Shown here one piece after another: positions 15,455 to 29,949 of a DNA stretch of 51,935 bases; position 1 is the stretch's first letter, and every line of letters begins with the position of its first letter. The stretch is from positions 1 to 51,935 of the IMG/VR virus record IMGVR_UViG_3300024344_000021. The stretch is one strand, 5' to 3'. A program made the translations under genes and the position numbers. The stretch is from a virus. The notes beneath the pieces were generated by a model. That model was not told the origin of the DNA. It ran no database searches and worked only from the letters and a program-made list of their open reading frames with translations.

Positions 15455-15528
15455 GGGTAAGTGACAGAGTGGTTATGTGATGGACTGCAACCCCATTTAT
15501 GTTGGTTCGATTCCAATCTTACCCTCCA
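15455..15528 (+). tRNA. tRNA-Cys (GCA)
   Basis: Acceptor stem GGGTAAG/CTTACCC, anticodon loop CTGCAAC (anticodon GCA), T arm GTTGG-TTCGATT-CCAAT, discriminator T and an encoded CCA end at 15526-15528. U73 is the identity base of tRNA-Cys. The body resembles bacterial tRNA-Cys from the D loop (GGTTATG) onward. The anticodon stem has one A-C mismatch next to the loop. It is transcribed with the early genes. Confidence 0.93.
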
Positions 15529-23780: not shown

Positions 23781-23901
23781 ACGTATAGCTAAGTATAATA
23801 GAAAGAAACAAAACACTTCCTACAAAAAAACTAGTAAAGGAAATAAAATTAAACACGATGAATCAGAGCAAGATAGGCGAACAAGATTATTTAGGAATTA
23901 A
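23761..23901 (+). CDS. small basic protein before ribonucleotide reductase
   Basis: A 46-codon frame from ATG 23761 to TAA 23901, overlapping DUF3310 by 20 bases and the reductase start by 44 bases. The product (MWDRKAERIAKYNRKKQNTS...) is Lys/Arg-rich. Composition differs from random out-of-frame sequence, but the overlaps make the call tentative. Confidence 0.45.
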   Translation: MWDRKAERIAKYNRKKQNTSYKKTSKGNKIKHDESEQDRRTRLFRN

Positions 23902-25690
23902 AATAAACTATGATCTAGAAGATTATCTAGATTCTTTTACTCTATCTACAATAAAAGATAGGTATCTTTGGGAGAATGAAACTCATGCTCAAGAGGCTTT
24001 TGCTCGCGCCAGTATATTTGGTTCTACTTTTAAGGGACATACTGATTACGATCTTGCACAAAGACTTTATTCATACGCTAGTGTTCACTGGTTCATGTTT
24101 AGCACTCCTATCCTTAGTAACGGGGGTACTAGCCGTGGCCTACCTATCAGTTGCTTTCTTAATTTTGTTCCTGATTCCCGCAATGGGTTATCTACTCATT
24201 ATGATGAGAACATATGGCTCGCAAGTGGAGGTGGAGGCATCGGTGGATGTTGGAGTAGTGTGCGGAGTAATGGCGTGGACACTTCTAACGGTTCTAAGTC
24301 TACTGGTTCCATCCCTTTCATGCACGTTGTAGACTCTCAGATGTTAGCCTTTAATCAAGGCGTTACAAGGCGAGGAAGTTATGCAGCATATATGGATGTG
24401 TCTCACCCTGAGATAGAAGAGTTTATAAACATGAGGAAAACTACAGGTGGAGACTTAAATAGGAAATGTTTGAATCTTCATAATGCAGTTAGTATATCCA
24501 ATGAGTTTTTAGAGGCTGTTAAGTTAGATAAAGATTGGAGATTGATTGATCCTAAAACTAACACAGCAGTTAAGACCATCTCTTCCCGTGATCTATGGTT
24601 TCAGATAATACAAACAAGAATGGAGACAGGAGAGCCTTACATTGTTAATCTTGATATATGTAACGAGGCTCTACCAGAAGAACAAAAGAAACTAGGATTA
24701 GAGATTAAACAAAGTAACTTATGTTCTGAAATAACTTTACCTACCAATGAAGAGAGGACAGCAGTTTGTTGTTTGTCTAGCGTAAACTTAGAACACTTTG
24801 ATGATTGGTCTAAAGATGATCAGTTCATTCCTGATCTAATTACTATGTTAGATAATGTTCTTCAAAACTTTGTTGATAGTGTTCAAGGTAAAGGAGGTTA
24901 CGATAAAGCTGCTTACTCTGCTATGCGTGAGAGGTCTATAGGTTTAGGTGCTATGGGTTTTCATAGTTATCTTCAAAGAAACAACATAGCTTTTGAAAGT
25001 ATGTACGCTTCTTCTTTTAACAACAAGGCTTTCTCTTACATAAAAGACAGAGCATCTGCGACCACTCGTAAGCTTGCAGAAGAAAGAGGAGAAGCTCCTG
25101 ACATGAAGGGTAGTGGTAAACGTAACGCACACCTTCTTGCTATAGCTCCTAATGCTTCTAGCTCTATCATATGTGGTGGTACTAGCCCATCTATAGAACC
25201 TATCAGAGCTAATGTTTATACACACAAAACTTTAACTGGGAGTTTTAAAGTTAAGAACAAGTACTTGGATGATCTTCTACTTGAACTTGTTCCTACTAAA
25301 AAGAAACGTGATGAAATATGGAAAGACATAGCAGCGCATGAAGGATCAGTGCAGCACTTAGATATACTGTCAGATTCACAGAAAGAAATATTTAAAACTG
25401 CTCCTGAGATAAATCAAATATGGATAATAGAACACGCTGACATGAGACAAAATTATGTTTGTCAAAGTCAGAGTGTAAATTTATTTTTTAAACCACCCCA
25501 TTACGAGGCTGATCAAGAAACACACGATGAGTTTCTACAGTACGTCAATGATGTACATTGGGCGGGAGCAACTAAATTAAAATCACTTTACTATTTAAGG
25601 TCTGACTCTGCTAGGTCTACAGAAAATGTTAATATAAAAATACCTAGAATAAAGTTAGATGAAGAGGGGTGTCTAAGTTGTGAAGGGTAA
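23858..25690 (+). CDS. nrdA: class I ribonucleotide reductase, alpha subunit
   Basis: A 610-residue reductase large subunit that makes deoxynucleotides for phage DNA. Visible residues: Cys99 (PISCF), Asn287-Cys289-Glu291 (SNLCSE, the radical Cys), Cys305 (VCCLSS), a SLYYLR tyrosine pair near 585 for radical transfer, and a C-terminal CLSC pair (605, 608) for reduction by thioredoxin or glutaredoxin. It lacks the N-terminal ATP-cone of the roughly 760-residue E. coli enzyme, so dATP feedback at that site is absent. The partner beta subunit lies 0.24 kb downstream. Confidence 0.95.
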   Translation: MNQSKIGEQDYLGIKINYDLEDYLDSFTLSTIKDRYLWENETHAQEAFARASIFGSTFKGHTDYDLAQRLYSYASVHWFMFSTPILSNGGTSRGLPISCFLNFVPDSRNGLSTHYDENIWLASGGGGIGGCWSSVRSNGVDTSNGSKSTGSIPFMHVVDSQMLAFNQGVTRRGSYAAYMDVSHPEIEEFINMRKTTGGDLNRKCLNLHNAVSISNEFLEAVKLDKDWRLIDPKTNTAVKTISSRDLWFQIIQTRMETGEPYIVNLDICNEALPEEQKKLGLEIKQSNLCSEITLPTNEERTAVCCLSSVNLEHFDDWSKDDQFIPDLITMLDNVLQNFVDSVQGKGGYDKAAYSAMRERSIGLGAMGFHSYLQRNNIAFESMYASSFNNKAFSYIKDRASATTRKLAEERGEAPDMKGSGKRNAHLLAIAPNASSSIICGGTSPSIEPIRANVYTHKTLTGSFKVKNKYLDDLLLELVPTKKKRDEIWKDIAAHEGSVQHLDILSDSQKEIFKTAPEINQIWIIEHADMRQNYVCQSQSVNLFFKPPHYEADQETHDEFLQYVNDVHWAGATKLKSLYYLRSDSARSTENVNIKIPRIKLDEEGCLSCEG

Positions 25691-25946
25691 AGTCATAGAG
25701 GTAAAATGGGATGATGCTTGGATTGATACTGAAGATGTGCTAATATCTGAGGCGAGAAAATTAAAAGCGGTATCCCGTTCTACCGTAGGTTGGTTAGTAT
25801 CTGATAATGAAAATGAACTTATACTTGCTACCGATATGTATCACAATGATAAAGACAAAGAATATGTTAATGCAATTATGGTTATACCAAAAGGTATGAT
25901 AATAGATTATTGGGAGTATGAAGTAGATGAGCCTATTAGGAACTAG
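25680..25946 (+). CDS. small protein between the reductase subunits
   Basis: An 88-residue acidic protein starting at GTG 25680 inside the last codons of nrdA and overlapping nrdB by 20 bases. The beta-rich sequence (VIEVKWDDAWIDTEDVLISE...VGWLVSDNENELILATDMYH) resembles a phage family of unknown function with a GWL-x(3-12)-ILA-type core. Its tight insertion in the nrd operon suggests co-regulation rather than a proven role in the reductase. Confidence 0.7.
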   Translation: MKGKVIEVKWDDAWIDTEDVLISEARKLKAVSRSTVGWLVSDNENELILATDMYHNDKDKEYVNAIMVIPKGMIIDYWEYEVDEPIRN

Positions 25947-26895
25947 AGATTATTACAAACCGTTTGATTATCCGTGGATGTTTAACTACTACGTCCAACA
26001 GAATCAAATGATGTGGTTGCCAGAAGATGTACCACTTCACAATGATGTTAAGGATTGGCAGGACATGACATCACATGAAAAGAATTTACTAACTCAGATA
26101 TTTAGATTGTTTACACAGTCAGATGTAGACGTAGCCTCTGGTTACATAGACAAGTACATGAGAGTTTTTAAAAAGCCAGAAGCTAGGATGATGATGTCTT
26201 CATTTGCTAACATGGAGTCTATACATCAACACGCTTACAGTCTACTATTAGATACTGTAGGAATGCCAGAGATGGAGTACAAGGCGTTTGCTGAGTACGA
26301 GGCTATGGCTGATAAGCATGAGTATTTAAGTGGCTCTACGCTCAAGATAAACAACAAAGAATCTATAGCTAGAAACTTAGCAATCTACTCAGGGTTTACA
26401 GAGGGCTTGCAATTATTCAGTAGTTTTGTTATACTATTAAACTTTCCTAGATTCGGAAAGATGAAAGGGATGGGGCAGATAGTTACTTACAGTATACGAG
26501 ATGAGTCACTACACGTTGAAGCTATGACTCAACTCTTTAGAGAGTTTATAAAAGAGAACGTAGATATTTGGACAGATGATTTTAAAAAAGAAATCTACTC
26601 TGTGTGCAGAGAGATGGTTAAACTAGAGGATAAGTTTCTTGATTTAGTATTTGAAATGGGAGACATACAAGGATTGACTAAGACTGAGATGAAAGAATAT
26701 ATTAGATATATAGCAGACAGACGGTTACTACAGCTAGGATTAAAACCTAACTATGGTATTAAAGATAATCCTCTTGATTGGCTTGATGATGTACTAGGTG
26801 TCGAACACCAAAACTTTTTTGAAGGTAGGGCTACTACTTACATGAAAGCAGGGTTGAAAGGTAATGTAGAAAATATAAGTTTTGCAAGTGTATAG
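25927..26895 (+). CDS. nrdB: class I ribonucleotide reductase, beta subunit
   Basis: A 322-residue radical-generating subunit. Metal ligands and radical site are all present: Asp66 (QSDVDVAS), Glu97 and His100 (MESIHQHAY), Tyr104 at the position of E. coli Tyr122, Glu159 (GFTEG), and Glu193/His196 (RDESLH). The Tyr indicates a tyrosyl-radical di-metal enzyme rather than a Tyr-less subclass. Length is slightly shorter than in E. coli (about 375). Confidence 0.95.
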   Translation: MSLLGTRDYYKPFDYPWMFNYYVQQNQMMWLPEDVPLHNDVKDWQDMTSHEKNLLTQIFRLFTQSDVDVASGYIDKYMRVFKKPEARMMMSSFANMESIHQHAYSLLLDTVGMPEMEYKAFAEYEAMADKHEYLSGSTLKINNKESIARNLAIYSGFTEGLQLFSSFVILLNFPRFGKMKGMGQIVTYSIRDESLHVEAMTQLFREFIKENVDIWTDDFKKEIYSVCREMVKLEDKFLDLVFEMGDIQGLTKTEMKEYIRYIADRRLLQLGLKPNYGIKDNPLDWLDDVLGVEHQNFFEGRATTYMKAGLKGNVENISFASV

Positions 26896-26899
26896 TATT

Positions 26900-27115
26900 A
26901 TGGACAATAACCAAGAAGCAAACTTAGTATCTTTCAAAGTAGTACTCACAAGGGACGGTACAATTATGACTGAGTTTAGTCATCTTCCTTTAGGTCATGC
27001 TGAGAAAATATTTCACAAAGAAGACTTTGATGTTATATCTAGGATTATATCTGAGGGTAGAAAAAAACTAGAACCTATGCACGAATACATTGAAAAAGAA
27101 ATACAATCTATTTAG
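26900..27115 (+). CDS. small protein ending the plus-strand block
   Basis: A 71-residue protein from ATG 26900, 4 bases after nrdB; a TTG at 26882 would overlap nrdB and is less likely. The sequence (MDNNQEANLVSFKVVLTRDG) is acidic and looks beta-alpha. Not recognised. Its last 8 bases overlap the opposing gene at 27108, so the two blocks converge tail to tail with no visible terminator. Confidence 0.6.
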   Translation: MDNNQEANLVSFKVVLTRDGTIMTEFSHLPLGHAEKIFHKEDFDVISRIISEGRKKLEPMHEYIEKEIQSI

Positions 27116-27461
27116 TAGCTTTGTGGTGCATAAATGCGGTAGCTCCCATGTATGTACCTACAATACCGCACATAGAAAAATAAAAAAGCCCCAACAAATC
27201 TGACAGAGCATTCACTCTACTATCAGATATGAGGGGCGTAAATAAAACTACCGTAGTTACTACCATGATAATGATAGCTAACCAAGCCATCATCTTTTGA
27301 GCCTCAGACTTTTCTTCTCTTAGTTCTAAGTCTACCATTTCTTTAGCTCGATCTAGTTCTTCATCACTGATGATGCCATCATTGTTTAGATCAAACTTCT
27401 CGTACTTAGACTGTAGTTCTAGTTTCTTTGGAGACATCTTAGTGCGTGTTTCCCTCACCAT
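27108..27461 (-). CDS. EF-hand membrane protein
   Basis: A 117-residue protein with one EF-hand near residues 24-35 (DLNNDGIISDEE: Asp, Asn, Asp, Gly, Ile, Asp/Glu in the loop positions), a charged helix, then two membrane segments (MMAWLAIIIMVVTTVVLFT and a LGLFYFSMCGIVGTYMGATA region). Calcium binding is expected on the soluble side. I recall EF-hand membrane proteins near lysis genes of marine phages, without a proven role; a lysis regulator or virion membrane factor is possible. Start could also be the Met at residue 9. Confidence 0.65.
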   Translation of the reverse strand: MVRETRTKMSPKKLELQSKYEKFDLNNDGIISDEELDRAKEMVDLELREEKSEAQKMMAWLAIIIMVVTTVVLFTPLISDSRVNALSDLLGLFYFSMCGIVGTYMGATAFMHHKATK

Positions 27462-28113: not shown

Positions 28114-28296
28114 TTAGTATCTTCTAAATAAATCTTCAGCAGCACAGTGATCCATAGCTCTGCAAATCCTTACGTTTTGCATATATAATTGTTGATCTAT
28201 ATAGTTCCATTCAGGATACTCTGACATCTGCATACTGACTTTGCTTAACGAACATCCTGTAAGTGATAGTAAAATTATTATTAATAGTCTACTCAT
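28114..28296 (-). CDS. small lipoprotein (outer-membrane spanin candidate)
   Basis: A 60-residue protein with a clear lipoprotein signal: MSRLLIIILLSLTGCS, lipobox LTGC with Cys15 as the acylated residue. The mature part is about 45 residues with two more Cys. Small late lipoproteins near endolysin genes are often outer-membrane spanin subunits, but the typical Pro-rich stretch is missing. It overlaps the next gene by 4 bases. Confidence 0.6.
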   Translation of the reverse strand: MSRLLIIILLSLTGCSLSKVSMQMSEYPEWNYIDQQLYMQNVRICRAMDHCAAEDLFRRY

Positions 28297-29579
28297 TGTC
28301 CTGCTATCATTCTCCTGTTTTCTCTTTCAGTTAAAATTTCTTGGTAGCCTTTTTCATCAAGATGGGTTACTGCTATCCAAGCATGAGTCATTTCATCTCC
28401 TGTTCTGCTGCCTCCATACACCCACTGATCTGCATCAGGGTTGTTAGGATTATCTTCAGTGTTGTCATACCACTGTTTAAGAACTAGTACTGCTCCTGTT
28501 GGTATCAGAGGTGCAAAGTCTGGATCGTATATGTGGCTATGATGCCAAGTTGCACTCCAGTTAGATACCTGACTAATCTGTTCTGTCACCCCAGTATCAG
28601 GGTAAAAGATTTCAAAGCTTGCTGCATTCATTCTAAGGTGTCCGTGAGGTTGCCATGAATCAATGCGAACAGGGTGATCAAAGGAGTGGAATCCTTGAGT
28701 CATGTGATAACCATGAGGAGGAATAACAATATCATCTTGATCGCTTATCCTGTAAAGCTTGAGGTCTTGAGCATATGTAAGTTCTTTAGATTCCTCTGGC
28801 GAGTATAGCCACAGTCCTATCTCTACAACATTATCTTCAATAATAGTTCCGGGTGCTATAGCTCCTAAACCACCGGGGAACATATGAATGTCCCAAGCTA
28901 TCTCAGAGTTAGCAGGTATAGTACGACAGACACCTTCCGGTACTATCTCGCCCCACTTACCCATAGCATACTCTGTCAGCATCCCATACCTCTCACCATC
29001 AACATTAACGGAGCTATTGGCATGATGCACTACACTCTTAGCATCACCTCTTGGTTTAACTTGAATAGCTTTAATACATCTATCCTCTGTCAATCCACTA
29101 GCTACGTTATGTTTATGCCATAGATCATTACCACTGGCAGGTATATCTATAGGAATAGAAGGGATAACCATAGTAGGCTCTCCAAAGTCTTCGTAGAAGT
29201 TCCACTGGTTAGGGTCTGAGAGATTAGCAGAGGGGGCTATAACGTCAGTATCGCCATACTCTGACCCAGTGTTTACCCATTCTACTATCGTGGCTATATC
29301 GGCCTCTGAGAGCCTCCAATCACCATGTAATTCCTGTATCCCTATACCCTGATCGTAAGCATATGGAGGCATCTCTCTGTTAGCTACCTTCATCTGTATC
29401 AAAGGACTCCACGGTCTAACTTGTTCATAGGTTTCAAACTGCATTGGGCCTATACCACCATCACGATGACAGACTACACAGTTGTTATTGATTATTTCAG
29501 CAACATCATCTACATAAGTAGGCACTCCATGAGCCATAGAACTTAGTAGTAATGTTCCGCTTAGTAGTAAATTTTTCAT
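28293..29579 (-). CDS. secreted cytochrome c / copper type II monooxygenase-like fusion
   Basis: A 428-residue exported protein. Signal peptide about 1-18 (MKNLLLSGTLLLSSMAHG). A cytochrome c domain has the heme site CVVCH at 34-38 and a probable axial Met70 (REMPPY). The larger part matches ascorbate-dependent copper type II monooxygenases (PHM/DBH-like): paired His185-His186 (VVHHANSS), His232 (IHMF), His312-x-His314 (PHGHLRM) and Met397 in GDEM, the expected ligands of the CuH and CuM sites. Cys168 and Cys218 may form a disulfide. Bacterial proteins with this fusion exist but their substrate is unknown. It sits among lysis and virion genes, just after the endolysin, as a likely auxiliary metabolic gene acting in the periplasm. 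Confidence 0.88.
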   Translation of the reverse strand: MKNLLLSGTLLLSSMAHGVPTYVDDVAEIINNNCVVCHRDGGIGPMQFETYEQVRPWSPLIQMKVANREMPPYAYDQGIGIQELHGDWRLSEADIATIVEWVNTGSEYGDTDVIAPSANLSDPNQWNFYEDFGEPTMVIPSIPIDIPASGNDLWHKHNVASGLTEDRCIKAIQVKPRGDAKSVVHHANSSVNVDGERYGMLTEYAMGKWGEIVPEGVCRTIPANSEIAWDIHMFPGGLGAIAPGTIIEDNVVEIGLWLYSPEESKELTYAQDLKLYRISDQDDIVIPPHGYHMTQGFHSFDHPVRIDSWQPHGHLRMNAASFEIFYPDTGVTEQISQVSNWSATWHHSHIYDPDFAPLIPTGAVLVLKQWYDNTEDNPNNPDADQWVYGGSRTGDEMTHAWIAVTHLDEKGYQEILTERENRRMIAGQ

Positions 29580-29580
29580 A

Positions 29581-29949
29581 TTAGTAACTCCATACTGTCG
29601 GCCTCGGCCTTTCTGGTGAATTTTCTATATCATCTAAATGTATAAATCTACCGCTACTACCTTTCTGATTTATTCCTATACCCGTAAACCCTGCTTCCGT
29701 AGCAGCGTCTAAAAGCATATGAGCCTTCTCTCCACGCACACCTATATCTATTGCGTGTCCTGTAGAGTGTGCTCCTGCCTTACTCTTACGAGCTTCTATG
29801 GGGTGATCTGGACAACGGTAAGCACTGTTCACAGGGAAAGGGAACCCCAACTGTTCTCTGAGTGCTTCTATCCTAGCCATAAAGTTTGGGTCCATACCAC
29901 TCTTACCACAGTGAGAGCATTTCAGTTCATCTTCTGTGAAGTATTTCAT
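29581..29949 (-). CDS. endolysin, peptidase M15-type
   Basis: A 122-residue peptidase of the D-Ala-D-Ala carboxypeptidase / M15 kind. Key motifs: SAYRCPDHP, AHSTGHAIDI (zinc His and Asp in H-x(6)-D) and RFIHLDD (second His). Cys11 and Cys14 form a CSHC pair near the N-terminus. It would cut peptidoglycan cross-links at lysis. There is no signal peptide, so it needs the holin; it overlaps the large upstream gene by 4 bases. Confidence 0.9.
   Translation of the reverse strand: MKYFTEDELKCSHCGKSGMDPNFMARIEALREQLGFPFPVNSAYRCPDHPIEARKSKAGAHSTGHAIDIGVRGEKAHMLLDAATEAGFTGIGINQKGSSGRFIHLDDIENSPERPRPTVWSY

Follow-up and report, generated by a model that had tools for sequence, protein, structure and literature searches.

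A predicted heme-fed copper monooxygenase gene in the late block of HMO-2011-type podophages

We analyzed a 51,935-nucleotide stretch of viral DNA (the window) whose late block carries a gene (gene A; 28293..29579, minus strand) for a 428-aa secreted protein in which a cytochrome c precedes a PHM/DBH-like copper monooxygenase domain. Among HMO-2011-type phages, gene A is fixed in one subclade; more distant relatives lack it. It is probably a horizontally acquired auxiliary metabolic gene (AMG) that encodes an intact, periplasmic, heme-fed two-copper monooxygenase. As is expected of an AMG, a host-derived metabolic gene is here fixed in a bona fide phage and held under purifying selection. On this reading, one subclade of an abundant marine phage group would have a complete soluble copper-heme oxygenase among its core genes, and other phages would carry the enzyme recurrently.

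Gene A in its phage and in other phages

Gene A is a real open reading frame on the minus strand, running from an ATG at 29579 to a stop codon that ends at 28293. It is packed directly behind the gene for a peptidase M15 endolysin of the same late block (29581..29949, minus; Pfam PF08291, E=4.6e-14; phrog_894 endolysin), has a GGAG ribosome-binding site (29588..29591, minus) 8 nt before its ATG, and shares a 4-nt ATGA overlap with the start of f1 (28114..28296, minus), a phage-only partner gene that encodes a 60-aa lipoprotein with an LTGC lipobox. These features agree with the late-operon position assigned to the gene in a first-pass annotation of the sequence. The ribonucleotide reductase (RNR) genes (23858..26895, plus; alpha, 23858-25690; beta, 25927-26895) are conserved convergent neighbors and were used as an anchor. 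Downstream, phages of this group also conserve a small protein (27108-27461, minus) that weakly matches EF-hand, and the sole tRNA of the window is a tRNA-Cys(GCA) (15455-15528, plus).

Phage-type genes in the window encode a major capsid protein, portal, terminase, primase/helicase, DNA polymerase, and RNR. Portal identity is 62% with HTVC115P and 51% with HMO-2011; for RNR alpha, identity with the HTVC115P protein is 59%. These values imply an HMO-2011-type podophage and bear out the podovirus-like character first given to the late block. The nearest isolated relatives infect SAR11. The window shares its portal, RNR, and genome layout with the HMO-2011-type phages of PMC9038755, but in HTVC115P the late slot of gene A is occupied by small ORFs and an Hsp20 gene. 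In its main text, PMC9038755 says nothing of a monooxygenase or a cytochrome, and the main text of PMC11360552 does not mention gene A. No published report of gene A in phages was found in a literature search beyond which lay subscription papers and preprints.

IMG/VR was sampled by RNR as an anchor, independently of gene A. Gene A was present in the same slot in all 19 contigs, several of them near duplicates, with an RNR identity of 82% or more and no less than 3.7 kb of downstream sequence. It was present in none of the 16 contigs with an RNR 68.6-74.8% identical and at least 3.5 kb downstream, seven of which extended more than 6 kb. Two contigs with the RNR at 74% carry a second type of A. 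Gene A was also absent from all 50,697 deposited phage records. The earlier claim that such a gene is very unusual for a podovirus-like phage needs amending: the gene is core within the subclade and recurs in unrelated phages.

A first IMG/VR scan returned at least 95 relatives of gene A, and scans seeded with other family members matched 246-248 encoding stretches. The gene, sought in other phages, is thus found in about 250 IMG/VR stretches, including unrelated T4-like and jumbo phages, and in at least eight unrelated contexts. Genes for an SbcC-type endonuclease, clamp loader, tail fibre, and DNA polymerase lie on various carrier contigs; phages with T4-like replication genes are among the carriers, as are contigs of 117-340 kb. 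One contig binned in a Neomarinimicrobiota MAG (L082; PBPT01000016.1, 335 kb) looks like a T4-like jumbo phage and carries A and f1; it was treated as a phage contig because of its clamp loader, endolysin, f1, and the single A copy in the genome. A sequence from a Flavobacteriales MAG (L111) groups with viral sequence.

In many viral loci, A is adjacent to B, a second cytochrome-PHM paralog that is ~28% identical to A. A set of 298 loci, which is redundant over scans and draws on one scan seeded by B, contained 151 loci with A and B, 97 with A and f1, 15 with A, B, and f1, and 29 with A alone. Where f1 is present, it directly adjoins A in 107 of 114 occurrences. This association was also seen in a search by an f1-anchored DNA pattern, where A lay directly beside f1 in 34 of 36 contigs, and the others comprised one contig cut at its edge and one exception. 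In the latter (L475:7398-7571), f1 has no A nearby and is located downstream of a ClpX-like gene, beside an Hsp20-like ORF. The f1 protein (~60 aa) has two further invariant Cys residues near its C-terminus and evolves fast, and f1 was absent from 13 candidate host genomes in which the controls were found. A function of f1 as a simple o-spanin was dropped, because f1 accompanies A into phages that lack the f12 neighbor of the window.

The signal sequences of f1 (L045, L048, L065) and of the unrelated B (L039, L040) start nearly identically (MKKLILLVSS and MKNLILLVSS), which suggests that the downstream module behind gene A may have been exchanged at a signal-sequence joint. We tentatively propose, as one possibility, that A together with f1 or a trimmed B forms a phage-evolved, two-part periplasmic oxidation module that is passed as a cassette between unrelated phages, with f1 or B anchoring, loading, or reducing A. 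If so, phages would have re-engineered a host enzyme and not simply copied a host gene.

Phage lipoproteins often act in exclusion or as o-spanins. The placement of gene A in the lysis/late block beside the endolysin gene, and its close association with a phage-only lipoprotein, would also fit a system in which A and the outer-membrane-type f1 oxidize a surface molecule (lipid, glycan, or receptor) or a signal, blocking other phages or aiding lysis. We consider envelope modification or superinfection exclusion of this kind unlikely, since many phages have the second enzyme B instead of f1, and not another envelope protein, and since a T4-like carrier (L062) has recombination genes, not lysis genes, beside A. 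Moreover, the donor family is found in catabolic-looking bacterial redox clusters.

Cofactor residues and relation to DBH and PHM

For the monooxygenase reading that we favor, each cofactor residue was located in the protein (all coordinates on the minus strand). Inspection of the translation confirmed a Sec signal peptide (MKNLLLSGTLLLSSMAHG, residues ~1-18; 29526..29579), a hydrophobic N-terminus that ends in MAHG-VPT and has no lipobox. The annotated CVVCH heme-c attachment motif follows at residues 34-38 (C34/C37/H38; 29466..29480) and is invariant in the alignment of A and B. The best candidate for the axial Met, of which the annotation had spoken as probable, is M70 in an MPP motif (29370..29372). 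A role of M70 as heme ligand is likely because it is invariant in all A and B paralogs, whereas M46 is invariant in the A subfamily only. Gene A thus has the CXXCH motif, distal Met, and export signal (the last by inspection) of a c-type cytochrome, and its cytochrome Pfam matches are sub-threshold (PF13442, 18.9 bits against a cut-off of 27; PF00034, 19.6 bits against 21.3).

Proteins of the PHM/DBH superfamily have two beta-sandwich domains, with two coppers about 11 Å apart, and catalyze a two-electron, O2-dependent hydroxylation. All six copper ligands predicted at first reading are present in gene A, are invariant, and align one to one with those of human DBH, whose residue numbers are given here as 4zel chain numbers plus 39. 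By invariance and profile alignment, the CuH ligands would be H185-H186 (29022..29027) and H232 (28884..28886), which correspond to DBH H262, H263, and H333, and two CuM ligands would be those of the H312-G-H314 motif (28638..28646), which correspond to H412 and H414. These five residues were placed by hmmalign. M397 in a GDEM motif (28389..28391) pairs with the methionine of the DBH EEM motif (M487), the third CuM position, in the hmmsearch alignment and is left unaligned by hmmalign. The corresponding ligands of PHM are H107/H108/H172 at CuH and H242/H244/M314 at CuM (PMC6123673).

This alignment was obtained with a 27-sequence family profile (A4), which matched human DBH (4zel) with E=9.1e-8 in a search of the PDB. 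A narrow viral-only profile (A3) failed to reach DBH, and gene A as a single query against Pfam, NCBIfam, PHROGs, and the PDB gave no oxygenase match. For the curated Pfam families PF01082/PF03712, gene A gave no hit, and one viral B (L026) scored 20.0 bits for PF03712 against a cut-off of 23. We therefore call gene A DBH/PHM-like and not a curated family member. Like DBH and PHM, it keeps the order HH...H...HxH...M in a core of similar length, and, like DBH, it has an extra N-terminal domain ahead of this core, which is a DOMON domain in DBH and a c-type cytochrome in gene A. Some members of the A4 set match AhpC-TSA/redoxin.

Conservation of the ten cofactor residues (C34, C37, H38, M70, H185, H186, H232, H312, H314, and M397) is strict. 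All are invariant in an alignment of 22 viral A and 6 viral B proteins, and all ten are kept in 95 of 100 viral rows of a wider set, where the other 5 are truncated or gapped. Median pairwise dN/dS values were 0.10 for A, 0.075 for B, 0.078 for RNR, and 0.43 for f1. Gene A is therefore under purifying selection, with a dN/dS close to that of RNR. The invariance of the ligands across paralogs only ~28% identical exceeds what chance would give, and the ligands are intact, as stated in the annotation, where this was taken to argue against decay.

In bacterial paralogs of greater length (561-634 aa in most cases), the HxH pair is missing and R/N or similar residues stand at the positions of H312 and H314, which implies that the CuM His pair can be lost in the family; such loss is not seen in phages. 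One example, with equivalents elsewhere, is L083:4570-6387 (minus), in which a cytochrome c is fused to a PHM-like core with R/N in place of this pair. The persistence of these paralogs indicates that the scaffold is usable without an oxygenase site, and gene A could accordingly act in copper/heme electron transfer, copper buffering, or peroxide/oxygen scavenging that protects the infected cell or its respiratory chain. Such a non-oxygenase role is improbable: both copper sites are retained in every complete viral A and B protein, and the pair would be superfluous in a protein that only carries electrons.

Bacterial relatives and capture by phages

Relatives with the paired cytochrome and PHM-like domains number in the hundreds of viral and bacterial loci. 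The bacterial relatives (374 stretches) are mostly from marine gammaproteobacteria (Pseudohongiella, OM182, and others) and are up to 74-75% identical to gene A. These uncharacterized proteins of the Pseudohongiellaceae/OM182 type have the same domain pair and all of the ligands. They are multicopy in chromosomal redox clusters, with 13-40 family matches in each of 13 gammaproteobacterial genomes, whereas a phage has a single A accompanied by f1 or a trimmed B. Among other sampled genomes of the class, 4 of 184 had any match.

As foreseen in the annotation, a tree with the bacterial fusion proteins points to the donors. The closest bacterial sequences to the main phage clade are L083/L084/L088/L093, and the L077-L081 phages, which have the same slot and f1, group instead with L149/L157. 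A single viral clade was rejected (AU p=1.7e-6; L080 is a long branch), which implies that gene A was captured by phages at least twice. The most likely donors are Pseudohongiellaceae-like marine gammaproteobacteria, judging from these groupings. The four host genomes closest to the main phage clade also supply the best homologues of B (53-55%), which are proteins with additional sequence at the N-terminus. It is gene ancestry alone that suggests marine gammaproteobacteria as the phage host as well; the GC content (window, 36.7%; gene A, 42.7%; loci of the nearest bacterial clade, 45.7-57.4%) and the SAR11-infecting relatives of the phage argue against this assignment.

Clear bacterial ancestry would also be expected of a passive or transient host gene or of a host-phage assembly chimera, but the identical slot in 19 of 19 close relatives, the long phage-only branches with a dN/dS of 0.10, the phage-specific partner f1, and the presence of the gene in at least 246 viral stretches make this explanation extremely improbable.

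Neighbors of the bacterial copies encode a GMC oxidoreductase, Gluconate_2-dh3, MFS, cupin, and PQQ dehydrogenase proteins, and these redox functions fit periplasmic oxidative catabolism. A secreted protein of ~312 aa (g1) is encoded beside bacterial cytochrome-PHM genes at L083:6746-7681 (plus) and at 49 further loci; searches for g1 found no known relative or family.

Proposed reaction and comparison with known systems

In the AMG reading, the gene A protein would be exported by Sec, its heme c would be attached by the Ccm machinery of the host, and copper would be loaded in the periplasm. By analogy with DBH and PHM, the N-terminal cytochrome may draw electrons from the periplasmic/quinol chain of the host and pass them to CuH, and CuM with bound O2 would hydroxylate a small organic substrate at a C-H bond. 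Late in infection, oxidation of a dissolved organic compound in the host periplasm could thus be raised or sustained, with the product passed to host oxidoreductases of the kinds whose genes adjoin the bacterial homologues (GMC oxidoreductase, Gluconate_2-dh3, PQQ dehydrogenase).

The first-pass annotation had allowed either a peptide or a small molecule as substrate, and the first of these is disfavored. We take the peptide carboxylate clamp of rat PHM to be R240, N316, and Y318. The aligned positions in gene A are Q310/H399/W401, which are near-invariant in A-type proteins. This replacement makes a peptidylglycine substrate unlikely, and the enzyme is probably not a peptide-amidating PHM. 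An NHL-propeller protein (g7), weakly PAL-of-PAM-like, is encoded near some bacterial copies (L085:12218-13348 and 15 others). A PHM-PAL peptide-amidation pathway was not adopted, because g7 matches TRIM NHL better than the PAL domain and is not regularly adjacent.

If the proposed function is correct, gene A would suggest that phage production in marine gammaproteobacteria is limited by an oxidation step in the periplasm. Among the many paralogs in each host genome, carriage by phages singles out one family to assay, and the function of a large uncharacterized family of bacterial enzymes is thereby made testable.

To our knowledge, the copper oxygenase genes previously known from viruses (pmoC, amoC) encode membrane subunits. 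The pmoC gene of large freshwater phages was likewise captured from a host and augments a copper oxygenase (PMC7674155). Viral amoC resembles gene A in the same two respects, and these genes are among many examples of AMGs. Both differ from gene A in sequence family, to which they are unrelated, and in encoding membrane subunits that need host partners, whereas the putative enzyme encoded by gene A is complete and soluble and has an electron-transfer domain of its own.
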